Below are positions 2,334 through 33,606 of a stretch of 37,931 nt of DNA, in pieces. Every line of letters starts with the position of its first letter. Within the stretch, counting starts at the first letter, position 1. A program made the position numbers and the translations under genes. This DNA is from Bacteroidales bacterium (GTDB taxonomy: Bacteria; Bacteroidota; Bacteroidia; Bacteroidales; WCHB1-69), in assembly GCA_024400785.1 (NCBI GenBank), contig JAKSME010000007.1, positions 1 to 37,931 of the forward strand. The letters run 5' to 3'. Below the pieces are notes generated by a model, which was not told where the DNA came from, made no database searches, and worked only from the letters and a program-made list of their open reading frames with translations.

Positions 2334-5171
2334 ATGAATACTCGCTTCCTTTTTACCCTTTTTTTCTTTTTTGCGTTCGCCGCAACTTCCGCACAAACCG
2401 AGCATTCGGATTCCCCGTCGGGACCGTACGCTCGGTTTTACGTTCCAGATGCTCAGTACCGTCCGTTTGTGCGATGGTGGTGGAATGGTGACAAAGTAGA
2501 GCGCGACGAACTCATTCGCGAGCTGCATCTGCTCCATGACGCCGGTATCGGCGGTGTGGAAATCAACCCCATCGAATTTCCTTCGCGCTGCGACTCGGTC
2601 GGCAAACCTTCACTCGTTTGGCTCAGCGATGAGTGGCTCGACGTGCTGGAGTCCGTTCTCCAGGAAGCTAAAAAGTTGAATATGCGCTGCGACCTGATTG
2701 TTGGCTCGGGCTGGCCTTTCGGGGCGGAAACATTGCCGCCGGAAGACCGTGCTTCGGTCATGCTCACGTATGCGCTCCCAACCCGCGGCGATACCACGCT
2801 CATCCTTTCCAAATCGGAAATTATGGCTGCTGTCGATCCCAAAGTTACAGTTCCTAATCCATTAAGAACCAGCGAATTGGTATCGCTTCTTCTTGTCCCT
2901 GACCCCGTGGATGGACTATATCAGGTAGAAGATTTCACCTCGCAGTTTGATAGCGACTCGCTTGTTTTGCACGTGCCGTCGGGGCCGCATGTTGTCTATG
3001 CACTCGTGCGGTATGATGCTTTTGCCAGCGTCATCAACGGCGCGCCCGGTGCCGCCGGTTCCATTCTCGACCATCTCAATGCCGATGCCGTCCGCCGTTA
3101 CCTGCTCAGCATGTCGGATGCCCTGACGGGAAAATTGGGCGCTTTGCCTATGTGGCTTCGTGCCCTTTTCGCCGACAGCATGGAGTTGGAAGGCTGCAAT
3201 TGGACCGGTGACTTTGCGGCCGAATTTCGTCGTCGCCGTGGCTACGACCTTATGCCGTGGCTTCCTTTCACGATGTTCAAGGTTGGAAGACTCGGAAATG
3301 TAGAAAGTTACAAGTTTGGTGCTGAGAAGACGGCCAAGTTTCAAGAGCAAGTCAATCGGGTTCGTTACGATTTTGAAACAACAAAGGCAGAATTGCTACA
3401 TGAGCGTTATACCGCCACCTTTTTGCAGTGGTGTCGCGACAACGGAGTGAAGTCGCGCGCACAAGCCTACGGCCGTGGCTTCTTCCCGTTGGAATCTTCT
3501 TTGGCTTATGACATTCCCGAAGGTGAGTCGTGGACCACGAATTATCTCCGTCACCGCGTGGGTGAGGAGATGGGCGACAGCGACTATCGCCGCGGCCGCG
3601 CTTACACCATGATCAACAAGTACGTGTCTTCCGCCGCCCATCTCAGTGGCAACCGCATCGTTAGCGCTGAAGAAATGACCAACACCTATCGTGTTTTCAA
3701 CACCTCACTCGAACTGCTGAAGGTGGGTTCCGACATGAGTGCCTTTTCCGGCGTCACTCATTCTGTGTGGCACGGTTTCAACTATTCTCCCCCCGAAGCC
3801 GGCTTCCCAGGTTGGGTGCAGTACGGCAGTTATTACAACGAACAAAATCCGTGGTGGCCCTACTTTCATCTGCTCAACGACTATCGCGCCCGAATGAGCG
3901 CATTGCTGCAAAATGCTGATATGGTGGCAGATATAGCAATCCTCCCCGCCAACGAAGACCTTTGGACAATCTATGGCGTGCAGACGGAACCTTTTCCCGA
4001 AAAACTCAATGTGCCGTACACTTCCCTTCTTTGGGAGGCCATCCACAAAAACGGCGGTGGCGCCGACTATGTTTCCGACCGCTTGTTGCAAAGTGCGGAG
4101 GTGAAAGAAGGTAAACTCTGTGTGGGCAAAAAAACGTATAAAGTGCTGATTTTGGCGGAAGTGTCCGGGATTTCTGCGGGCGCATTGGCAACGATTTCCG
4201 ACTTTGTTGCTGCGGGCGGACGAGTCTTCTGCATAGGGAAATTTCCCGACCGCTCGTTGGGATTGTTGAATTTTGAAAAAAGGGATAAACAGATCCAAAA
4301 GTGTGTTAAAAAGTTAGAAAATCAGCCCCAAAATTTCGTTTTGTTGGAAAAACCAAGTGATGGGAAATTCTTGGAGTGGTATGGAAATGTAATGCGAGAT
4401 TATTCGTTGCCCCATACGATTACGATTTCTTCTCCGGATAGGTTCCTGCTTCAAAATCACTATGTTATGGATGATGGTTCCGACTTTTTTTTGTTTGTGA
4501 ATGGGCATCTTACCGAGTCGCGGGCTACGGAGGTGATTTTCCAGAAAGACTTTGTGGACGGTAGAACGGCATGGCTTTATGATGCTGCTACCGGTGAAAG
4601 ATACCGTTTGCCCCTGCGTGCCGACACACTCTCGGTAACTCTCTGTCCTGCGGAAACATGGTTGGTGGTTTTCGACCGTGACACGGTCGGCCCTTGCTGG
4701 CAGCCGTTGCCTGAGATTTCTTCCCATGCCCGTGAGTTGACCGGCTGGCAGGTGCAGTTATGGAATCCGCTGCTGGCAGACAGCGAGTCAAAGTCGTTAA
4801 CGATGCGGTACCCGGTGGATTTGCGAGAGACGGCTGATTCAACCTTTTCCGGAGTCGCCACATATAAAACCACAGTGTTGTTGGATTCGATGTCGGAAAG
4901 AGTGGTGTTGGATTTGGGGCGTGTAGCGGATGTTTGTGAGCTGTTTGTGAATGGCCGAGCGTGCGGGGTGAAATGGTTCGGCCGCCGCGTGTATGATATC
5001 ACCCCTTATATCCATCTCGGTTCCAATAGTGTGGAGGTGCGTGTTACTACGCTGATTGGTAACTATTTACGAACATTCTCTGATGATGCTACCGTGCAGC
5101 ATTACATTTTTAAGCGTGGGCAATCTACTGTGCCGGCTGGATTGATTGGACCGGTGATGTTGGATAGGTGA
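2334..5171 (+). CDS. Secreted GH106-type alpha-L-rhamnosidase
   Basis: 945 residues with a signal peptide (about residues 1-20, cleavage near SAQ). The first domain opens with RPFVRWWWNGD (residues 43-53) and HDAGIGGVEINPI, a segment typical of GH106 family proteins, followed by the long TIM-barrel region. The last ~120 residues form a galactose-binding-like beta-sandwich (VVLDLGRVADVCELFVNG and similar). GH106 enzymes hydrolyse terminal alpha-L-rhamnose from pectins (rhamnogalacturonans) and arabinogalactan-type glycans, in the periplasm or at the cell surface. Length fits the family. No SusC/SusD, regulator or other pectin enzyme lies next to it, so it is not in a classical polysaccharide utilization locus. 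I did not assign the catalytic Glu residues. The family call is good; the substrate is inferred. Confidence 0.82.
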   Translation: MNTRFLFTLFFFFAFAATSAQTEHSDSPSGPYARFYVPDAQYRPFVRWWWNGDKVERDELIRELHLLHDAGIGGVEINPIEFPSRCDSVGKPSLVWLSDEWLDVLESVLQEAKKLNMRCDLIVGSGWPFGAETLPPEDRASVMLTYALPTRGDTTLILSKSEIMAAVDPKVTVPNPLRTSELVSLLLVPDPVDGLYQVEDFTSQFDSDSLVLHVPSGPHVVYALVRYDAFASVINGAPGAAGSILDHLNADAVRRYLLSMSDALTGKLGALPMWLRALFADSMELEGCNWTGDFAAEFRRRRGYDLMPWLPFTMFKVGRLGNVESYKFGAEKTAKFQEQVNRVRYDFETTKAELLHERYTATFLQWCRDNGVKSRAQAYGRGFFPLESSLAYDIPEGESWTTNYLRHRVGEEMGDSDYRRGRAYTMINKYVSSAAHLSGNRIVSAEEMTNTYRVFNTSLELLKVGSDMSAFSGVTHSVWHGFNYSPPEAGFPGWVQYGSYYNEQNPWWPYFHLLNDYRARMSALLQNADMVADIAILPANEDLWTIYGVQTEPFPEKLNVPYTSLLWEAIHKNGGGADYVSDRLLQSAEVKEGKLCVGKKTYKVLILAEVSGISAGALATISDFVAAGGRVFCIGKFPDRSLGLLNFEKRDKQIQKCVKKLENQPQNFVLLEKPSDGKFLEWYGNVMRDYSLPHTITISSPDRFLLQNHYVMDDGSDFFLFVNGHLTESRATEVIFQKDFVDGRTAWLYDAATGERYRLPLRADTLSVTLCPAETWLVVFDRDTVGPCWQPLPEISSHARELTGWQVQLWNPLLADSESKSLTMRYPVDLRETADSTFSGVATYKTTVLLDSMSERVVLDLGRVADVCELFVNGRACGVKWFGRRVYDITPYIHLGSNSVEVRVTTLIGNYLRTFSDDATVQHYIFKRGQSTVPAGLIGPVMLDR

Positions 5172-8783: not shown

Positions 8784-8815
8784 CAAAGTTACATTTTTTT
8801 TAAATAATCTCACAA
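8784..8815 (-). promoter_or_regulatory. Promoter (TTG-N21-TAACTTTG) for the exonuclease gene
   Basis: On the minus strand a TTG (8813-8815) lies 21 bp before TAACTTTG (8784-8791), matching the Bacteroidetes -33/-7 pattern. The -33 part overlaps the last codons of the GH3-GH29 gene. Confidence 0.4.
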
Positions 8816-11800
8816 CTCTTTCACTACTGCGTAGGCACCGCTTTGTTGTAGTGTGATGGCATATTTGTGCCTCCCGTCCTTCGACTGTGTGTATCGCACG
8901 TTCCCTTCCGCGTACGGATATAGCGGCCGTGTGCCGTATATGGCATAGCCGTTTTCCAATAACCAGCCGCCTATCTCGCAAAGCCGCTGCTGTGCCGCCA
9001 ACGGTAGCTGCCCATCAGCATCGGGACCGACATTTAAGAGGTAGTTACCACCTTTCGCAACTATATCTATCAGTGTGTGAATAAGTTGTCTGGAACTTTT
9101 GTAGTTGTCATTCTCCACGTATGACCAACTGTCGCCCATGCTCATGCAGGTTTCCCAAGGGTAAGGCAGCAGCGTGTCGGGAACTTGTTGCTCCGGCGTC
9201 CGGTAATTTTCATATTTGCCACCCACACTTCGATCTACGATGATGAGGTCGGGATTTTCTGCTCGCGCCATCTTCGCAATGCGCTGCATATCAATGTCTT
9301 GAATGCGTTGGTATGCTCCAAGCCATTCTCGCGTTTCCTCCGTCAGGCTCCATGCCGGTCGTACCCAGCCGCCGTCCAACCAGAGAATGTCAATCTCTCC
9401 ATAATTGTGTGTGATCTCATACAACTGATTGTAAGTAAACTCTTTATACTTTTCCCATCGCTCGGGATAAATGTTGATGTCATAGTTGACGTTGCGATCT
9501 GGCGTTGTCCATTCGTGCGCCCAGTAGTCATCGCAATGCCAGTCGGGTTTTGAAAAGTAGAGCCCCGTCCACATATTTTGCGCGCGGAAAGCGTCCACCA
9601 CCGACTTGGTGATGTCGGGTTGCGGTGTGGAATGGTAGGGACAGTCGGGTCCCGCCACGCTGTAATCGGTGTATTTGCTGTCGAACATGCAGAAACCGTC
9701 ATGGTGCTTGGTGGTGAAAACCACATATTTCATGCCCGCCTCTTTTGCAACTGCAGCCCATTGCTCAGGGGCGAATTTTTTCGGGTTAAAAGTTTGATTT
9801 AGTGCTTGATAGCGTTTCTTGTATTCGTTGTAATCTTCACCATTGCGGGTGATCCACGGCTCATTGCAGATGCTCCACGACTCCACTACCCCCCACTGAG
9901 CATACATTCCCCAATGCAACATAAAGCCAAATTTCAAATCCTGCCATTCTTCCATTCGGTTCAAAATCACGGGGGCTGTTTCTGGCTGCGCGTCTGCGGA
10001 TACTTCCTCGACCACGGTTGTATTTTCACTGTCGAACCCGATTTCAATAACATAGTTTCTGCCAGATTTTGGCTCAATCATCACCTGTTTTTCTTCATCA
10101 AAAACCTTCAACCAAAATGGATCTATCTGGATGTCAAAGTCTTTTGTCGCGTGAACGGGAATGGTGAGATGAGCGAAACCAACCAAACTCTTTTTCGGGG
10201 CGGCCGTATCTTCCAAATTTCTCACGTAGACTTGTACCACGGCTTTTCCTGTCGGTGAAGTGCACCTTTCGGATATTCGGTCATGGGAAACGGTCCCGTG
10301 AATGGTGAGGCTTTCTCGGCAAAAAGTGACATTTTTCAATGAAAACTGACTGTAACTCAATCCGAAACCAAACGGGAAAAGCGGTTTCTCTTCCATATAG
10401 CGATAGGTGCGCCCTCGCATATTATAGTCGGTAAATTCCGGCAGTTGTTGCGTTGAGCGGTAAAAAGTCACAGGCAAACGGCCGAAAGAGTTGCGTTTTC
10501 CAGCCAGCGTTTGTGCAACTGCCGCTCCCATCTTTTCCCCACCGTACCAACATACCAATATTGCATCTACTTCATCCACAATGTTTTCCAATGCAATGGC
10601 ACTGCCTGTGCAAAGCAACAAAACAATCGGTTTCCCATATCTTTTCAACTTTTTTAAGTCATCAAGTTGAGATTGGGGCAGTTCAATCCGTGTTCTGTCG
10701 CCTTTGTAGAACCCGGGTTCGTTTATTGGCAGCTCTTCACCTTCCAATTGAGGAGAAAGCCCTCCAACATAGACGATGACATCGGAATTTTTTGCTTTTT
10801 TGGTAAGAGGAAAAAGGTCGCTCATTCCTTCCCAAACGGAAACGGTGTGCTGCGGCGTTCCGTTGTAGTTGCCTATCGGCATCAGTGTGTCGGCGGCATT
10901 GGGACCGGTTAGAAAGATTTTTGTCCCTTCAGAAATGAGTGGCACTATGCCATTATTTTTCAACATTACGATACTGCTTGATGAAGCATATATTTGTGTA
11001 TCAATTATTTTTAAAAAATAATTGGGTGATAAAATGTTACTTGATGGTTCTTCTACGCGCAGTCGGGTAGTAAGGATTCTGCGGACATGTTCGTTGATTT
11101 TCGCTTCGCTGATCCAGCCCGAATCCACGGCTGTTCTGAGAGCGGAAAGTCCGCTACCGCATTCCAGATCCACTTCGCTCCCGAAAGCGTCTGCAGCGGC
11201 GCGAGGAGCACTTGTGTGTGTTTCGTGGCGCGGCGTCTTCGCATCACGCTCCCAACAGTCGTTCAACGCCCAGCAGTCGGTCACCAGCAAACCGTCGTAC
11301 TGCCACCGATGCCGTAAAATGTCTACCAGCAATTCTTTGTGGGTACAGCACGGCTCCCCGTTCAAACGATTGTATCCGCACATCACTTGTTGCACATCGC
11401 TGTTTTTGATAATGTACTCAAAGGCAGGAAGATAGGTGGTCCACAAGTCGCGATATGAGATTTGCGCGTCAAATTGGTGGCGCAAACTTTCGGGACCGCT
11501 GTGCACGGCCAGATGCTTGAGGCAGGCGGCCGTTGTGAGGTGGCCGTCGCCATAGCGTTCGCTCTCTTGCAGCCCATTGACACAGGCCAATCCCATCATT
11601 GCGGTAAGAAACGGGTCTTCGCCGTAGGTTTCCATGCCGCGTCCCCACCGTGGGTCGCGGAAAATGTTGATGTTCGGGGTGAAGAAAGTGAGTCCGGTGT
11701 AGTCGCCATACTCGCCCGCAGCTTGCGACTGGCGGTGTTTTTCTCGGGCTTCTGCCGCTGTGGCGGAAAAGATTCCGCGCACCAATTCAGGGTCGAATGT

Positions 11801-12067
11801 CGCCGAGAGCGCGATGGGCATGGGCCAAACCGTCGCCAACCCATTGCGTGCCACACCGTGTAAAGCCTCATTCCACCAACTGTAAGCCGGCAGGCCGACA
11901 TGCGGAATGGCCGGATTTTGATGCTCCATCAGCGAGAGTTTCTCATCAAGCGTCAGTTGCGACAATATTGCCTCTGCCCGCTCTTCGATACTGCTCCCCG
12001 CATGGTTCTGCGACATGGCGGCGAAGGAACACATTATCATGAATAACAGGCAGTAAACTCGCTTCAT
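8810..12067 (-). CDS. Secreted GH3 glycosidase - GH29 alpha-L-fucosidase fusion
   Basis: One uninterrupted 1085-residue frame. Signal peptide 1-19. Residues ~25-670 are a complete GH3 protein: (beta/alpha)8 domain with DPRWGRGMETYGEDP (138-152) and nucleophile Asp264 in LVTDCWAL; a second alpha/beta domain with GLSPQLEGEELP (candidate acid/base Glu near 442-445); then a fibronectin-III-like end. This subtype resembles beta-xylosidases and beta-glucosidases. After a short linker (~680-705), residues ~706-1085 are a GH29 fucosidase: FGFMLHWGMYAQWG, TTKHHDGFCMFDS, and nucleophile Asp898 in ILWLDGGW. Together they could remove beta-xylose or beta-glucose and alpha-fucose from one glycan, for example fucosylated xyloglucan or host glycan; that is inference. 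It follows the HAD gene by 12 bp. No CBM or T9SS domain is seen. Confidence 0.9.
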   Translation of the reverse strand: MKRVYCLLFMIMCSFAAMSQNHAGSSIEERAEAILSQLTLDEKLSLMEHQNPAIPHVGLPAYSWWNEALHGVARNGLATVWPMPIALSATFDPELVRGIFSATAAEAREKHRQSQAAGEYGDYTGLTFFTPNINIFRDPRWGRGMETYGEDPFLTAMMGLACVNGLQESERYGDGHLTTAACLKHLAVHSGPESLRHQFDAQISYRDLWTTYLPAFEYIIKNSDVQQVMCGYNRLNGEPCCTHKELLVDILRHRWQYDGLLVTDCWALNDCWERDAKTPRHETHTSAPRAAADAFGSEVDLECGSGLSALRTAVDSGWISEAKINEHVRRILTTRLRVEEPSSNILSPNYFLKIIDTQIYASSSSIVMLKNNGIVPLISEGTKIFLTGPNAADTLMPIGNYNGTPQHTVSVWEGMSDLFPLTKKAKNSDVIVYVGGLSPQLEGEELPINEPGFYKGDRTRIELPQSQLDDLKKLKRYGKPIVLLLCTGSAIALENIVDEVDAILVCWYGGEKMGAAVAQTLAGKRNSFGRLPVTFYRSTQQLPEFTDYNMRGRTYRYMEEKPLFPFGFGLSYSQFSLKNVTFCRESLTIHGTVSHDRISERCTSPTGKAVVQVYVRNLEDTAAPKKSLVGFAHLTIPVHATKDFDIQIDPFWLKVFDEEKQVMIEPKSGRNYVIEIGFDSENTTVVEEVSADAQPETAPVILNRMEEWQDLKFGFMLHWGMYAQWGVVESWSICNEPWITRNGEDYNEYKKRYQALNQTFNPKKFAPEQWAAVAKEAGMKYVVFTTKHHDGFCMFDSKYTDYSVAGPDCPYHSTPQPDITKSVVDAFRAQNMWTGLYFSKPDWHCDDYWAHEWTTPDRNVNYDINIYPERWEKYKEFTYNQLYEITHNYGEIDILWLDGGWVRPAWSLTEETREWLGAYQRIQDIDMQRIAKMARAENPDLIIVDRSVGGKYENYRTPEQQVPDTLLPYPWETCMSMGDSWSYVENDNYKSSRQLIHTLIDIVAKGGNYLLNVGPDADGQLPLAAQQRLCEIGGWLLENGYAIYGTRPLYPYAEGNVRYTQSKDGRHKYAITLQQSGAYAVVKEL

Positions 12068-12079
12068 GTTTCAATTTTT

Positions 12080-12775
12080 TTAGAAAAAATCCAGTAAATC
12101 GGAAAAAGTCTCCGCCCGTCGCATGTTCCCATGCTCGAAATCTTCGATGATTTCGTGCTGCCACATGATTTCGTAGGGAATGTGTACCGCCATCGCTCCA
12201 ATATTCAGCGCGGGCAGTATGTCCGATTTGAGGGAATTCCCCACCATCAGCAACTCTTCCGGCGCAATATCCATGGCCGTACAAAGGTCTCTGTAGTCGC
12301 TTTCCTTTTTATCCGTAACAATAAATACTCTGTCAAAAAATGGCAGAAGTCCAGACCTTTTTAGCTTGTTTTCCTGGGTGAGAAGTTCCCCCTTGGTGAA
12401 GACGACAAGCATATATTTTTCAATGCTTTTCAAGTGTTCCAGAGTCTCTTTCACACCAGAAAGTGGTGTGGCTTTGAGACGCACCAAAGTACGACCTGCC
12501 TCAATAATTTTCCCGATGTCGTGAGCAGGAACTTTGCCTTTGCTGGCTTTCACCGCATTTTCAATCAGCGACATGGTGAAAGCCACGGCGCCATAACCAT
12601 AATCTGGCATATTGTCCATCTCGATGGCATAGAGCTGTTCGGAAATTTCTTCCTTGCTTCCGTAGGGCGAGAGAATGTCGCACATTTCGGACTCCACTTT
12701 GCGAAAAAATGGCTCATTGTCCCACAAAGTATCATCGGCATCAAATGCAATTACTTTGATGTTTTCCAACTTCAT
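12080..12775 (-). CDS. HAD-superfamily phosphatase
   Basis: 231 residues. Motif I is DADDTLWDN (Asp12 nucleophile, Asp14 acid/base), motif II lies in VVFTKG, motif III Lys in the TDKKESDY region, and motif IV is VGNSLKSDI. The helical cap between residues ~20 and ~95 places it in the class I (C1 cap) group that includes phosphoglycolate- and nucleotidase-like enzymes. It therefore probably dephosphorylates a small metabolite in the cytoplasm; the substrate is unknown. It lies 16 bp after metG and 12 bp before the GH3-GH29 gene, so the three genes are likely one transcript. Confidence 0.88.
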   Translation of the reverse strand: MKLENIKVIAFDADDTLWDNEPFFRKVESEMCDILSPYGSKEEISEQLYAIEMDNMPDYGYGAVAFTMSLIENAVKASKGKVPAHDIGKIIEAGRTLVRLKATPLSGVKETLEHLKSIEKYMLVVFTKGELLTQENKLKRSGLLPFFDRVFIVTDKKESDYRDLCTAMDIAPEELLMVGNSLKSDILPALNIGAMAVHIPYEIMWQHEIIEDFEHGNMRRAETFSDLLDFF

Positions 12776-12791
12776 ATCGACAGGAAATCAA

Positions 12792-14846
12792 CTATTTCAC
12801 CGTGCTGCCGGCATTAACTTTCTTTTCGGGTTGCATGAGTGAAAGACTGCCGTCGGCGTTTTCTGCCATGAGCACCATGCCGTGCGATTTTACGCCCTTG
12901 ATTTCTTTCGGGGCAAGATTGATGAGCATCAACACTTGCTGGCCGACGAGCTTTTCGGGTTCGTAGTATTCGGCAATGCCGGAAACGATTTCGCGGGTGT
13001 CAACGCCCGTATTGACTTTGAGTTTCAGCAGTTTCTTGGTTTTGGGAACGCGTTCTGCCTCCAACACCGTTACCACGCGGAGGTCCATCTTCTGGAAGTC
13101 ATCGTAACTGATGTCCTCCTTGGCATTGATGGCCGGGGCATTGGCGAGGGCGTTGGCTTTTTTGGCATCTTCCAACTTCTTGACTTGTGCGGCGATGGCT
13201 TCATCTTCAACTTTCACAAACAGAAATTCTGCCGGGTTGATTTTGTTCCCGGCTTTCAGCAAATCTGTGTGCCCTCCGTCGTTCCAATTCTTGTTATTAA
13301 GATTGAGCATCTGCTGTAATTTGGCAGAGGTGAAAGGAAGGAATGGTTCGCAAAGTACTGACAAACAAGCACAAATTTGTAAAGAAACGTGAAGGATGAT
13401 CTTCACATATTCAGGATTCTCTTTTTGTTTTTTCCATGGTTCAGTTTCGGTAAGGTATTTGTTGCCGAGGCGGGCGAGATTCATCAATTCGGCTTGAGCT
13501 TCGCGGAAGCGATAGCGTTCGATGCTGTTTCCAATGCGCTGCGGAAATTCGGCTATTTGGCTCCGTACCTCTTTTTCCAAGTCGGTCAGCTCTCCTAATT
13601 CAGGAATGATGCCTCCGTAATATTTGTGAGTCAGGGCCACGGTTCTATTGACGAAATTGCCAAAGATGGCGAGCAGTTCGTTGTTATTTTTGGCTTGGAA
13701 GTCGGCCCATGTAAAGTCGGCATCTTTGGTTTCCGGAGCGATGGAGGTGAGGGTGTAGCGGAGGGTGTCCTGTTTGCCCGGGAAATCCTGCAAATATTCG
13801 TGCAACCAAACGGCCCAGTTGCGGGAGGTGGAGATTTTGTCACCTTCTAAATTGAGAAATTCGTTTGCAGGAACATTTTCCGGCAAAATATAACTGCCAT
13901 CAGCTTTCAACATGCACGGGAAAATGATGCAGTGGAACACGATGTTGTCTTTCCCGATGAAGTGAACCAGCTGTGTATCATCATCTTTCCACCATTTTTC
14001 CCAATCGGTTCTACCTTGTTCCTTCGTCCATTCTTTCGTTGCGGAAATGTAGCCGATGGGCGCGTCGAACCAAACATACAGCACTTTCCCTTCTGCATCT
14101 TTGAGCGGAACTTGCACGCCCCAGCTCAAGTCGCGGGTGACGGCGCGGGGATGCAAACCTGCTTCAATCCAAGATTTGCATTGACCGTAAACATTCACTT
14201 TCCAATCCTCCTTGTGCCCTTCGAGAATCCACTCTTTCAGCCACGGTTCGTACTGGTCCAAAGGAAGATACCAGTGCTTGGTTTCTTTCATCACTGGCGG
14301 ATTTCCGCTCAGTGTTGACTTGGGATTGATGAGGTCGGTGGCATTGAGTGTGGCGCCGCACGCTTCGCATTGGTCTCCGTATGCCTTTTCATTGTGGCAG
14401 TGCGGGCATTCCCCGGTGATGTAACGGTCGGCGAGGAACTGTTTGGCTTCTTCATCGTAATACTGTTGTGAAGTTTGCTCGATGAGTTTTCCGTCGTTGT
14501 AAAGTTTTGTGAAATAGGCAGCAGCGGTTTCGTGGTGTGTGGGGTTGGAGGTGCGGGAATAGATGTCGAAAGATATTCCTAACTCTTTGAATGACTGTTT
14601 GATGATATTGTGATAGCGGTCTACGATATCCTGCGGAGTAACGCCCTCTTTGCGTGCTTTGAGCGTAATGGGAACGCCGTGTTCGTCGGAACCGCCGAGG
14701 AACAGCACCTCTTTCCCGTTGTTGCGGAGGTAGCGTGCATAAATGTCGGCAGGAACGTAAACGCCGGCAAGATGACCGATATGAACGGGGCCGTTCGCAT
14801 ACGGAAGGGCCGAAGTAATGGTGTAGCGTGCAGGATTCTTTTTCAT
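12792..14846 (-). CDS. metG: Methionyl-tRNA synthetase with C-terminal tRNA-binding domain
   Basis: 684 residues from ATG 14846; the frame extends upstream to 14918, but that segment contains the promoter box and terminator, so it is not coding. Class I catalytic signatures are VHIGHL (HIGH, residues 22-25) and [12 protein letters not shown] (a KMSKS variant, KISTS). The connective peptide carries a zinc knuckle CPHC-x9-CEAC. A C-terminal EMAP/Trbp111-like OB fold (from about residue 575, [21 protein letters not shown]) makes this the long, dimeric MetG form. It charges tRNA-Met. First gene of the metG-HAD-GH3/GH29 unit. Confidence 0.97.
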
Positions 14847-14868
14847 TTTATTCTGATTTATTAAAGTG

Positions 14869-14876
14869 CAAAAATA
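14869..14876 (-). promoter_or_regulatory. Promoter -7 box TATTTTTG for metG
   Basis: Minus-strand TATTTTTGCA lies 22 bp before the metG ATG and just after the terminator of the upstream operon. This supports independent transcription of metG and its start at 14846. Confidence 0.45.
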
Positions 14877-14885
14877 CAAAATTTT

Positions 14886-14918
14886 ACAAAAAATGGAGGC
14901 ACTTGCCGGTACCTCCAT
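14886..14918 (-). terminator. Rho-independent terminator of the mce-decarboxylase operon
   Basis: On the minus strand ATGGAGGTAC and GTGCCTCCAT pair over 10 bp (one G-U) around a 6-nt loop (CGGCAA) and are followed by TTTTTTG. It lies 25 bp after the stop of the decarboxylase beta subunit. Confidence 0.85.
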
Positions 14919-28909: not shown

Positions 28910-29510
28910 GATTCTCTCCGGCTTCCGGACCTATATTAAATAATAGGTCAATGACCGATAAATTATCTGTAAACGGAATCCGGTCTTCAAAAACCTGGGA
29001 ATAGGGCGCACTGCCTAACAAGGATTCCCGCTTGGGATGAATCTCATTTCGCAAATCTGTGATTTCAGAATACTCCTTCTCAAAAGTCTCTGTCAGTACG
29101 GGGACTTTTTTTATTTTCAACAACTTCATTAGGGTTGCTGTCAATTCCAAGTTGTAATCAAAAAGGAATTCGTATTTTTGACTGAAAAAAGGGTAAAGAA
29201 AGTCCTTGTAATACAAGAAGTAAGGAGTTCCGCTGTAGGCTGTTTCAATGGCCCGCCAATGCTTCAATTGCCAGTCGCACTTGTAGTCGATGCGAACATC
29301 TTTGATGCACATCCGCTCGGGGTCGGGCCGCGTGGGCAACAGCAAGGGCTGAACCCCGCTCGCTGTCAAAATATTCGTGCGGTTGCGAAAGGGCTGCTTT
29401 TGAAAACTTTCACACCCCTCCATAAAAAATACTTCGCTTTTGGAAATAAAAGCGAAGTATTCTATGTTGGGGAGATAGGCCGTCGATAAGACGATTTTCT
29501 CCGATTTCAT
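28884..29510 (-). CDS. WbqC-family protein
   Basis: 208 residues. The family pattern is clear: STAYLPNIEYFAF, then ESFQKQPFRNRTNILTASG, and DYKCDWQLKHWRAIETAYSGTPYFLYY, ending in LSVIDLLFNIGPE. WbqC-like proteins occur in O-antigen loci and, in Bacteroidetes, as isolated genes; the biochemical role is not established. Its ATG shares a base with the stop of the upstream protease gene (TAATG), indicating translational coupling. The 3' end overlaps the convergent ftsZ by 26 bp. Confidence 0.87.
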   Translation of the reverse strand: MKSEKIVLSTAYLPNIEYFAFISKSEVFFMEGCESFQKQPFRNRTNILTASGVQPLLLPTRPDPERMCIKDVRIDYKCDWQLKHWRAIETAYSGTPYFLYYKDFLYPFFSQKYEFLFDYNLELTATLMKLLKIKKVPVLTETFEKEYSEITDLRNEIHPKRESLLGSAPYSQVFEDRIPFTDNLSVIDLLFNIGPEAGENLNRRMESR

Positions 29511-31171
29511 TATTTCGAAATGATGATTTTAGAACGATAAACGTCACCGGCATTGCTGATTTCCATCATGTACATGCCAGCAGTCAATGAATTGAGATTA
29601 ATATTGAATTCAGGGGCTAATGATACGGTGCGGCTCCAAACGAGGTTGCCCATCATATCATAAACATGGCAAACGCCGTTTCCTTCGTGGAAATCACCGG
29701 AAACAGTAACCATGCCGCTCGTCGGATTCGGAAATACGTTGAGACTCTTGCTTCCTTCGTAGTTGGCAATGGCATCGGGAGAACCAATCATCCAAACACC
29801 TTGCAAAGTGGTAACACCACTGTTGTTCGGATCCAACCACGGTTTCAATTTCTTGGCATTGTTGCTGTTGTTGCCGTTCGTCCAGGAATTGGAAAGCTTG
29901 CCATATTCGTCCATTCCACCAGGATTGCTGCAGCTGCTTGAACCGGCATAAAGCTGTCCGATAATGAGTTTGTCCTTGTTGAATAACGGAGAACCGCTGG
30001 AACCTTGTTCCGTTGCGCCGGTAGCCGTTGCCCAAGTGGTCAGCCAGTACTTTGTGGTGTTGGAATAAACCTGAGCCCCGTTGCGCAAGGTTTGAGGAAT
30101 GCTGAATTTTTTGATGTCACCTCCAGGATGATGAATCGCAGCGCAAGAAGTAGCAGCGTTCAAAGAGGCGGTTTGTGTAGCAGAATTGTCCCATCCAGCC
30201 AAGAATACGTTAAAGATAGGGTTGATGGTTCCGGTGATTTCTACCAACATGAAATCTGAGCTGGAATCGCCATTGTCTTTGGCTTTCAGCGTGTAACCTG
30301 TTGCGGTTTTGTAAATGGAACCGTTGCTGCCGTTGCAAGTAGTGGCTTGATAACCAAAATAGAATTTCCAAGTGCCGCCTTCATAACAGTGGTTGGCAGA
30401 AAGTAAATAATGCTTCTGGTTGGTTGGCGTGTTGCCGGTGTTGTTTACCATGGCACCGGAACACATGTAAATATAACCACCACTGGTCATGGTGTAACAT
30501 ACAACAGACTGGATTTGTGCGTGCCATTGAGCATCGTAACAAATGGCATTCGGATGGCAAGTGCCTTCGGCTGTACCGATACCACCTTCAACATCTTTAT
30601 TAATATGGAAGAAATCGTAGTAACCCTGAGAAAGCTGGTCGATGACCAAATTGCCGTGGAAAGCGACGTTGGCAGGCTCGTAATATTCAAGAATGATGGT
30701 TTCGCCCGGCATTTCCTGCGGATAGAAAGTACCATCTTCCATCTTGTTGAGGCAGGTGAATTTACCGATAAATTCATCTCTGTCGGGAGTATAGAAATAT
30801 AATTCTGCCCCTTCCGGAATATCGAAGGTGCTGAAATTCATGGAAGTAAAGGTGGCTTCCTTCATGTGGAAAGCCACACGCCAAAGTCTGGAGCCATCTG
30901 GCAAATAGTCCATACGACCGCAATTATTGATATTGTAATTCACATCAATGGTAACACCGATTCTCAAAGCGTGGCTCTTGCCTTCAATAGAGGCATCTTC
31001 TGCTAAAAGAGCGTCAACGTCAAGTGCATCAAATTCAATCTCTGGAACGATGGTGGAAATTTCATTGTGTTTGAAAGAATAAGGTTCACCACCATAACTC
31101 ATTTGCGCCATTGCATTGGTTCCCCAGATACAAAAAATGGCGACGAGGGCAATTTGTAATAAATGTTTCAT
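29510..31171 (-). CDS. T9SS-secreted lysyl-endopeptidase-like trypsin-fold protease
   Basis: 553 residues. Signal peptide ~1-23 (ends AMAQ). An N-terminal pro-region to ~205 (with an ALYFYTPD-like beta fold) precedes the chymotrypsin-fold domain: His261 in LLSANHCY, Asp306 in SSDFMLVE, Ser392 in EQGSSGSPLF. This arrangement, with IHHPGGDIKKFS, resembles lysyl endopeptidases (Achromobacter protease I-like). The C-terminus (~475-553) is a T9SS type A sorting domain: LNVFPNPTSGMVTV, VYDMMGNLVW, AGMYMMEISN and KIIISK. It should be exported as a zymogen to the surface. It is the second of a tandem pair (18 bp after the larger paralogue) and coupled to the WbqC gene. Exact P1 specificity is not assigned. 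Confidence 0.92.
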   Translation of the reverse strand: MKHLLQIALVAIFCIWGTNAMAQMSYGGEPYSFKHNEISTIVPEIEFDALDVDALLAEDASIEGKSHALRIGVTIDVNYNINNCGRMDYLPDGSRLWRVAFHMKEATFTSMNFSTFDIPEGAELYFYTPDRDEFIGKFTCLNKMEDGTFYPQEMPGETIILEYYEPANVAFHGNLVIDQLSQGYYDFFHINKDVEGGIGTAEGTCHPNAICYDAQWHAQIQSVVCYTMTSGGYIYMCSGAMVNNTGNTPTNQKHYLLSANHCYEGGTWKFYFGYQATTCNGSNGSIYKTATGYTLKAKDNGDSSSDFMLVEITGTINPIFNVFLAGWDNSATQTASLNAATSCAAIHHPGGDIKKFSIPQTLRNGAQVYSNTTKYWLTTWATATGATEQGSSGSPLFNKDKLIIGQLYAGSSSCSNPGGMDEYGKLSNSWTNGNNSNNAKKLKPWLDPNNSGVTTLQGVWMIGSPDAIANYEGSKSLNVFPNPTSGMVTVSGDFHEGNGVCHVYDMMGNLVWSRTVSLAPEFNINLNSLTAGMYMMEISNAGDVYRSKIIISK

Positions 31172-31189: not shown

Positions 31190-33565
31190 TTATTTAATAA
31201 GTGAAATTTTCTTGGTAAAATTCTGATTGTCAGTTTGTACGGAAATGATATACATTCCACTGGTCAAGGATGAAAGATTCAAGGTAACTTCGTTAGAACC
31301 CATCTGCTGGTCAACTTGCAAGAGCTTGCCACTCAGGTCGTAAACCTTGATTTCTGCAGTTTTGATTTCACTGTTTTCCAAACGAACGGTGACATTTCCG
31401 GAAGTGGGGTTGGGATAAATGACTGTGTTGACTTCTTCCACTTCTTCAATTTCGGTGGCTGCCGGATCATCGCACAATTGCGGGAAAAGAGCGTGTGTGA
31501 GCGCAATTCCCCAAGAATCAGCATCGGAATATTGGCTCCAAGTGGAATCACTGTTCATTTCCCATGCCGTGTTGGCAGCATTACCCTGGCTGTTGGTGAC
31601 CAGCCCGAAAGTGCCACTCGTCGGAACCATGAATCCTGCAAAGAAACTTCCATTCACTGTGATTGCTGTATTGAATTTGCAATAGTAACGACGGCGCAAT
31701 TGAGGATAACTGGTCGGCATCTGCGGGTCGTTTTCGATACAACTATGATTTGCTATCTCACTGAGAGACACCGTTTTGCTGCCAAGTATCGCACCGGGTT
31801 GGCCATTGTTGTCAGCCCATACACAGAAGGTGATGTTGCCAGTGCCGCTCACCATGCCTACATTCATAATCATGTTCACAATGTATTCTTCGGTGCTGTC
31901 TTTCTGGAAATAGTCTGCCTTGGCCAAATCACCGTATGAATTGGTTCCAGCCAAATATCCTTCGTCAGGTGTGCGGTAAAGAGTTAAAGTCCCGCCCAGC
32001 GGGTAATGCAATTTGTGACAGTTTCCTTCAACTCCCGGGTTGTCCGGATCATCCGGATTATCTGGATTGTCTGGATCATCTGGATTATCTGGATTATCTG
32101 GTTCATCTGGATTGTCTGGATTGTCAGGGTTGTCGGGGTTGTCTGGATTGTTGGGGTCGAACATCGGGCAAGTGGTGTTTCCTGTGTTGTTCGGGTCCAA
32201 CCACGGTTTGGCCTGCATGTCATTGCTGCTGCCGTTGCGGTCCCAGTGGTAGTACAGTTTGCCGTAAAGGTCGTGGTGTGGATAACTACAGCTGGCAGAA
32301 CCACCCGTCAGTGTGCCAACCAAGTAGCCATCTTGGTCAAACAAACCGGAGCCAGAAGAGCCGCCTTCGGTAACGCCCAAGTTGGTCTGCGTCTGCCTCC
32401 AATCAGTAATCCCCCAATGTGCATTGCTTGCACATCCGGTGTAAGAACCTGTGGTAACGGTAGTTGAAGATGAAATTTTCTTAACGTCCCCTGCCGGATG
32501 GTGAATGCCGGTAACGGTCGTCGCTGCCGTGTTGTCACGTCTCCAACCTGCGTAAATCGGATTCCAAGAGTTGTCAGGGGCTTGATTTAATTGTAAAAGG
32601 TAAAAGTCAGAACCTCCGCTCATCGGACCGTAAGCTTTTTTCGTACAGCCGGTTCTGGAGTGCATTTGAGCTTGGGTGCTTCCGGTGCAAGTGGTGTATT
32701 CCAGGTTGAAGTCGAAACGCCATTGGTTGAAGTTGGCGGCTGTGGCATCCGGTCCGCAGTGGTTGGCCGTCAGAACGTACGGCGTACCGTCGTTGGCAAG
32801 ATTGTTGATCAAGGTTCCGGAACACCAACCAGCACTGTTGCCTTCCCTGACGAAAATTCTCACCACCGATTGCTTGTGGAGCTGCCAGTTCTGGCCTTCC
32901 GGACAGTTGACATTGACTTCGCAGCTTTCGCTGTCGCCGATGTCGCGCAAACGCTCCAGTTGGTCAAGTCCACGGAAAACGTAACCGACCTGCGAGATGC
33001 TGAGGTCGGGGACTTCCACTTCACTGTGCAACACGGCTTTCTTTGCGCCGGGTGTCAACATGCTAGGCGCAACATATTCTATAATAACGCTTTGCCCTAA
33101 AATGATACCGATTACAAAACCATTGTCCCCCGTATTGTCTTCCGATGTGTACCCCCCGATCAACTGCGAGCGGGTCTCGTCATAAACATACAATTCACCG
33201 CCTTCTGGAAGGTTGAAACGGTCAAAATAAAGCGACAATCCTCGGGCATCCCTGCTTGTAACTCTGGCTCTCCAAATCGTCATCCCATTGTCTAACTCTT
33301 CCCATGTTCCGGAATTGAGGGGCGTGATGTCAACATCCTTCAATTGGGCAATTACATACAAGCCTTCCTTCTCATCATTGCCGATCGCCTGGGCAATAAA
33401 GTCTGCATCAGCAGGTTCTACACGCATTTCTCCAAAATTGGAAAACATCTGCGATGTCCCAAAACTGGCGGGAAGAGTCCCAGTTAAATGCTGTCCGAAA
33501 CAAAAATTTCCAAAAGCTAAAATATTAAAAATGATAAAACAAACGAGGGTGTTTAGTTGTTTCAT
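31190..33565 (-). CDS. Large T9SS-secreted lysyl-endopeptidase-like protease with NPD-repeat linker
   Basis: 791 residues from ATG 33565; the longer frame to 33601 starts before the signal peptide and crosses the promoter box. Signal ~1-24. A pro-region to ~225 is followed by the protease domain with His269 in LTANHCG, Asp320 in GGSDFYLLQL and Ser404 in TEGGSSGSGLF, closely parallel to its downstream paralogue (shared HHPxGDxKKxS and KPWLDPNNTG). Residues ~472-511 are a linker of NPD/DPD repeats. Then comes an extra beta-rich module of ~190 residues (DYFQKDSTEEYIV ... NITFCVWADNNGQPG) and a T9SS sorting domain (VIYPNPTSGNVTV ... KKISLIK). It probably degrades extracellular protein. Confidence 0.92.
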   Translation of the reverse strand: MKQLNTLVCFIIFNILAFGNFCFGQHLTGTLPASFGTSQMFSNFGEMRVEPADADFIAQAIGNDEKEGLYVIAQLKDVDITPLNSGTWEELDNGMTIWRARVTSRDARGLSLYFDRFNLPEGGELYVYDETRSQLIGGYTSEDNTGDNGFVIGIILGQSVIIEYVAPSMLTPGAKKAVLHSEVEVPDLSISQVGYVFRGLDQLERLRDIGDSESCEVNVNCPEGQNWQLHKQSVVRIFVREGNSAGWCSGTLINNLANDGTPYVLTANHCGPDATAANFNQWRFDFNLEYTTCTGSTQAQMHSRTGCTKKAYGPMSGGSDFYLLQLNQAPDNSWNPIYAGWRRDNTAATTVTGIHHPAGDVKKISSSTTVTTGSYTGCASNAHWGITDWRQTQTNLGVTEGGSSGSGLFDQDGYLVGTLTGGSASCSYPHHDLYGKLYYHWDRNGSSNDMQAKPWLDPNNTGNTTCPMFDPNNPDNPDNPDNPDNPDEPDNPDNPDDPDNPDNPDDPDNPGVEGNCHKLHYPLGGTLTLYRTPDEGYLAGTNSYGDLAKADYFQKDSTEEYIVNMIMNVGMVSGTGNITFCVWADNNGQPGAILGSKTVSLSEIANHSCIENDPQMPTSYPQLRRRYYCKFNTAITVNGSFFAGFMVPTSGTFGLVTNSQGNAANTAWEMNSDSTWSQYSDADSWGIALTHALFPQLCDDPAATEIEEVEEVNTVIYPNPTSGNVTVRLENSEIKTAEIKVYDLSGKLLQVDQQMGSNEVTLNLSSLTSGMYIISVQTDNQNFTKKISLIK
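32037..32154 (-). repeat. 9-bp tandem repeat coding for (NPD)n linker
   Basis: About 13 nine-base units of the type AATCCAGAC/GATCCGGAT on the coding strand encode N/D/E-P-D triplets. The copies differ mainly at third positions and by Asn/Asp/Glu exchange. Being 9 bp units, gain or loss by slippage keeps the frame, so the linker length can vary between strains. Confidence 0.88.
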
Positions 33566-33598
33566 GTGATAAGATTTTGACACTAAAAAATAAGCTGG

Positions 33599-33606
33599 CA
33601 AAAATA
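33599..33606 (-). promoter_or_regulatory. Promoter -7 box TATTTTTG for the protease operon
   Basis: Minus-strand TATTTTTGCC lies 33 bp before ATG 33565 and matches TAnnTTTG. It is divergent from the rsfS box. Confidence 0.42.

Follow-up and report, generated by a model that had tools for sequence, protein, structure and literature searches.

The window, i.e. the whole 37,931-nucleotide stretch of Bacteroidales DNA analysed here, carries on its reverse strand a gene in which a glycoside hydrolase of family GH3 runs on into a GH29 fucosidase (Table 1). The first-pass annotation had described it as one continuous frame with two complete glycosidase domains, a single signal peptide and intact active sites, and the analysis agrees with this description. 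The N-terminal signal peptide has no internal counterpart, both catalytic domains are recognized by their Pfam profiles, and neither an in-frame stop nor a remnant of a second signal peptide was found at the joint of the fused protein. Asp264, the expected GH3 nucleophile, is aspartate in all 24 rows having that column in an alignment of 41 rows, and Asp898 in all 19 rows having its own. A WxDG-type nucleophile motif is present in 94/94 rows of the GH29 tree. Glu442 and Glu444, each conserved in 24/24 rows of the alignment, presumably mark the acid/base site of the GH3 half, of which one would be the catalytic residue. Judging from the sequence, the fused protein is probably periplasmic. Its AlphaFold model (pLDDT 79.7, pTM 0.66) consists of two separate folds with low pLDDT at residues 689-696 of the linker; domain contacts are not firm in it, and it favours neither the presence nor the absence of channelling. 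In the source genome (G000) the fusion is the sole match to the GH3 N-terminal domain, and one further GH29 is encoded on contig C22.

Table 1. Positions of the fusion gene, its domains and neighbours in the window, and of related single-ORF fusions in other loci (L numbers; positions within each locus)
Feature	Location	Positions	Strand	Remarks
GH3-GH29 fusion gene	window	8810..12067	-	1085 aa, ATG start, single ORF
Signal peptide, ~residues 1-20 (MKRVYCLLFMIMCSFAAMSQ)	window	12008..12067	-	judged type I by eye, without lipobox
GH3 N-terminal domain (Glyco_hydro_3), residues 57-333	window	11069..11899	-	Pfam 1.3e-33, over cut-off
Asp264, GH3 nucleophile in VTDCW	window	11276..11278	-	alignment position; expected role
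GH3 C-terminal domain (Glyco_hydro_3_C), residues 366-572	window	10352..10972	-	Pfam 8.1e-42, over cut-off
Glu442-Gly-Glu444, expected GH3 acid/base region	window	10736..10744	-	conservation; expected role
Fn3-like domain, residues 610-677	window	10037..10240	-	Pfam 4.1e-8, over cut-off
Fusion joint, residues 683-702	window	9962..10021	-	GH3 end directly into mature GH29 N terminus
GH29 catalytic domain (Alpha_L_fucos), residues 691-1040	window	8948..9997	-	Pfam 6.4e-92, 309.1 vs cut-off 25.2 bits
Asp898, GH29 nucleophile in WLDGGW	window	9374..9376	-	alignment position, motif
HAD hydrolase	window	12080..12775	-	12 bases upstream of fusion; context not conserved
metG	window	12792..14918	-	16 bases beyond HAD; context
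Reverse GH29-GH3 fusion	L104	4740-8414		
Reverse GH29-GH3 fusion	L162	80-3787		
Reverse GH29-GH3 fusion	L219	5723-9439		
Reverse GH29-GH3 fusion	L221	723-4421	-	
PNGase-GH29 fusion	L150	7246-10542	-	single ORF
PNGase-GH29 fusion	L207	7617-10946		single ORF
PNGase-GH29 fusion	L208	8275-11601	-	single ORF
PNGase-GH29 fusion	L209	7263-10607	-	single ORF
PNGase-GH29 fusion	L210	7364-10714		single ORF

The position of the gene behind metG and a HAD hydrolase gene, outside a PUL, had been noted before and considered odd. The location holds, but its oddness is not a clue, since hardly any two relatives share their flanking genes and the metG-HAD setting is therefore uninformative. A conserved operon with these two genes was rejected, as no other window gene lies near the fusion in the second genome carrying it (G001). 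A scan of 23 proteins of the window found no SusC or SusD, the other probable genes being shorter than 300 aa, and no PUL is visible around the sampled tandem GH3/GH29 loci, which are flanked by mixed genes. The GH3/GH29 pair thus looks autonomous, and its neighbours give no substrate clue in the genus. The gene yifB adjoins the pair in L024, L028 (where it is broken into two frames) and L092, as in the window but in opposite orientation. The window also encodes, at a distance of 3.6 kb from the fusion, a GH106-like alpha-L-rhamnosidase that includes a GH2_N domain (2334-5171, forward strand), and further on two back-to-back trypsin-like proteases with T9SS sorting tails (29510-31171 and 31190-33601, reverse strand).

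The full-length fusion is present in two of the 13 genomes of the genus, G000 and G001 (UBA1756, locus L016). The G001 protein, from a separate assembly, is a full-length fusion with 79% identity, has no internal stops and shares the position of the joint. The source MAG is fragmented into 179 contigs, which could suggest an assembly or annotation artefact, but a second species shows the identical fusion and joint in its own independent MAG, which makes this extremely improbable; the fusion is genuine and not an assembly error. Between the two species the GH3 half shows a dN of 0.13 and a dS of about 2.3, and the GH29 half a dN of 0.09 with saturated dS. Such low dN together with saturated dS indicates purifying selection on both halves.

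The 79 named relative loci retained, from uncultured Bacteroidales of which many came from ruminants, were classified by ORF reading. GH3 is followed by GH29 as a separate neighbouring gene in 25 of them, with a 4-base overlap in 16 of these pairs and a 1-base overlap in two. A fused single ORF was found in one locus (L016), one intervening gene in another (L022) and a distance of 3-6 kb between the two genes in two (L053, L080), while 46 loci carry GH3 without GH29 and four GH29 without GH3. The gene lying between GH3 and GH29 in L022 (10111-11322) encodes an AAA_14/DUF4143 ATPase, and a related gene is located 3' of GH29 in L021. Four extra fusions suggested by frame values of 1228-1335 aa (G199, G212, G365, G449) were discarded because ORF reading gave separate neighbouring genes.

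Comparison with the separate genes shows how the joint was formed. Standalone GH3 proteins stop about six residues past the point where the fused protein runs on, and in standalone GH29 proteins of the genus PDAQPETDPVILNR comes after an N-terminal signal peptide. The fused protein of the window continues directly into DAQPETAPVILNR, a near variant of which is found in L016. GH3 has thus lost its stop and GH29 its signal peptide, and the frames were aligned. In the midpoint-rooted GH29 tree (94 rows) the two fused proteins group together with supports of 100/98, next to separate genes of the same genus (97/90), and the GH3 tree (91 rows, built by a quick method) gave the same placement with supports of 100 and 98. 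In these trees both halves lie among tandem-gene lineages. The fusion probably arose when a deletion joined a GH3 gene to the GH29 gene co-transcribed behind it, a pair whose separate form persists in relatives.

Such a deletion between overlapping genes may have been neutral, leaving two independent enzymes which draw no benefit from their linkage; this concerns the benefit of the fusion and not its substrate, and its chance is only slightly below even. It fits with the pair remaining separate and often overlapping in relatives, with the occurrence of both genes on different contigs in three genomes of the same genus (G002, G006, G009), and with a short linker of low model confidence. Against it stands the maintenance of the fusion in two species, over a time in which synonymous sites became saturated while dN stayed low in both halves.

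The first-pass annotation had proposed a search for other GH3+GH29 architectures, which turned up the G001 fusion and also single ORFs of the reverse order, GH29-GH3 (Table 1). These resemble the fusion of the window in carrying both families on one chain in the same bacterial family, but differ in domain order, in their NF052329/BglX-like GH3 and in a GH29 that forms a separate long branch. Their count excludes seven genomes with frame values alone (G024, G027, G069, G070, G072, G076, G077). In L103 a pair of this type occurs as separate genes.

The reading we prefer, at a probability of roughly 60%, is that the fusion encodes an exported, probably periplasmic, bifunctional exo-glycosidase which trims the core of plant N-glycans in two steps. 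A GH92 alpha-mannosidase would act just before the GH3 half, which would take the beta-1,2-xylose off the core mannose and unblock the core; the GH29 half would remove the core alpha-1,3-fucose once the xylose is lost. According to PMC9522356, the Phocaeicola (P.) massiliensis GH3 B035DRAFT_00995 is active on pNP-beta-xylose and on the beta-1,2-xylose of N-glycans but not on xylobiose, and the GH29 B035DRAFT_02132 needs this GH3 to act first for complete removal of core alpha-1,3-fucose. This published order, repeated by the same two families on the fused chain, points to plant N-glycans. The earlier expectation of one substrate bearing both a beta-xylose and an alpha-fucose is well supported. 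Members of the GH29 clade are fused to, located beside or co-occurring with peptide-N-glycosidases (PNGases). GH92 is present in 80/104 genomes of the bacterial family, and the source genome has two partial GH92 genes, the longer of which has 6f8z, 6f91 and 7zgm (third-best) as its best solved relatives.

For the association with PNGases, 104 genomes of the family were searched for the PNGase domain PF09113 and for matches to either half of the fusion protein at E <= 1e-100. The domain was found in 65 genomes and the fusion match in 55, with PNGase in 51/55 match-positive genomes against 14/49 others (Fisher OR 32, p 7e-12, kinship ignored). Across 393 genomes of the order, 124 of which have a PNGase, it is present in 78 of at least 101 genomes positive for the GH29 clade against 46/292 others (OR 18, p 3e-29, kinship likewise ignored); the GH29-half matches were counted down to about E 1e-111. 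Single-ORF PNGase-GH29 fusions of 1098-1116 aa occur in five Bacteroidales genomes from several families (L150, L207, L208, L209, L210). Together with two unfused rows, their GH29 parts make up one branch (100/100) on the side of the window's clade in the midpoint-rooted tree. Like the fusion of the window they join a related GH29 to another step of the same putative pathway, but their partner is an amidase and their GH29 is only 52-54% identical to that of the window, which counts against the N-glycan reading. GH29 lies beside PNGase in L211, L212 and L213, in the last with one intervening gene for DUF4838, a domain that may correspond to GH163, and SusC, SusD, GH29, GH20 and a type II PNGase are found inside 14 kb in L215. 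In the order sample GH29 and PNGase lie within 10 kb in 8/78 genomes that have both (p ~1e-6 to 2e-4, with an assumed chance of 1-2% each). For the one strong-scoring PNGase of the family that was tested (L166), the best matches were PNGF-II and 7ZGN, the latter a plant/insect-active PNGase according to PMC9522356. In L016 a PNGase-like gene, whose product also has F5/8C and T9SS domains, lies about 4 kb from the fusion, and genes of this type are present in 8/13 genomes of the genus, the source genome not being among them. Homologues of the PNGase-like gene L095 1353-3770 on G002:C66, G006:C12 and G009:C39 have one in-frame stop each in the matched stretch, probably upstream of the true start.

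Several other results speak against plant N-glycans as the substrate. No PNGase was found in the source genome, one of four family genomes with a fusion match and without PNGase (the others being G031, G054 and G057). As this genome is 88.8% complete, the gene may belong to the missing part, or the cell may live on glycans that other organisms set free. At the order level 23 of the at least 101 GH29-positive genomes are without PNGase, and a PNGase near the locus was seen in just one of the 79 named loci, namely L016, the other fusion. Xyl3A (NF041776, xylan 1,4-beta-xylosidase) is the best NCBIfam match of the GH3 half, but the score of 749.6 bits lies far below the cut-off of 1250. The best-matching segment reaches no further than residue 417 and leaves some of the 846 model positions uncovered, presumably a PA14-type insert.

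Other substrates were weighed with marker counts, i.e. profile matches over cut-off in the 104 family genomes. GH10 was found in none of these genomes, GH31 in three and GH43 in eight, and none of the three in the source genome. Fucosylated xyloglucan, the substrate named in the first-pass annotation, does end in alpha-fucose, and xyloglucan oligosaccharides are cleaved by some GH3 enzymes. The fucose of xyloglucan is attached to galactose above alpha-xylose, however, and the residues attacked by GH3 and GH29 would not be successive ones. With the GH31 alpha-xylosidase, which xyloglucan use requires, missing from the source genome and so rare in the family, with no PUL around the gene and with a GH29 clade that tracks PNGases, this proposal is not supported and very improbable. 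The side chains of grass glucuronoarabinoxylan, alpha-L-Gal-1,2-beta-Xyl-1,2-Araf, would require both activities in sequence: the GH29 half would take the terminal alpha-L-galactose or fucose, and then the GH3 half the beta-xylose on arabinose. The xylosidase model as best NCBIfam match agrees with this. So does the finding in PMC4491172 that a GH95, from a family otherwise made up of fucosidases, releases L-Gal from corn xylan. The absence of GH10, the scarcity of GH43 and the tie of the GH29 clade to PNGases, on the other hand, make grass xylan an unlikely substrate.

According to PMC9522356, the N-glycans of plants are allergenic and cause difficulties in therapeutics produced in plants. 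If trimming of plant N-glycan cores is indeed the function, the fusion would be a natural one-chain enzyme for both core sugars and a useful tool. It would also mean that plant glycoproteins are exploited by some gut Bacteroidales with small genomes though they have no GH10 and mostly neither GH43 nor GH31, and the PNGase-GH29 fusions would offer an independent route to the assignment of a GH29 clade that is otherwise poorly defined. Separate enzymes with each of the two activities are known, and it is the architecture on one chain that is new. Among open-licence PMC papers, neither the phrases GH3-GH29 or GH29-GH3 nor a paper titled for such a fusion was found, and no related paper for PDB code 9EU1. 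As a tentative and rather speculative extension, gut Bacteroidales might repeatedly place consecutive reactions of plant N-glycan degradation on one chain, as PNGase-GH29 fusions in several families and as GH3-GH29 in the genus of the window. The GH3-GH29 chain might carry out an ordered two-step removal of the two core sugars that are specific to plants and immunogenic, perhaps without letting the intermediate go.

Among known systems, NixE and the N-glycan cluster of X. campestris (Dupoiron 2015) reportedly employ a GH29 in sequential processing of plant N-glycans. The role of the GH29 would be the same here, but the X. campestris genes are separate and clustered, and the likeness is one of description. 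The pathway of P. massiliensis is comparable by family and description as well. It and the fusion share the two enzyme families, their expected order of action, a type I signal peptide on the GH3 and, at the level of genomes, the company of type II PNGase and GH92, but no PNGase was found in the MAG of the fusion itself. In P. massiliensis these are two proteins from two loci, and here they are one chain.
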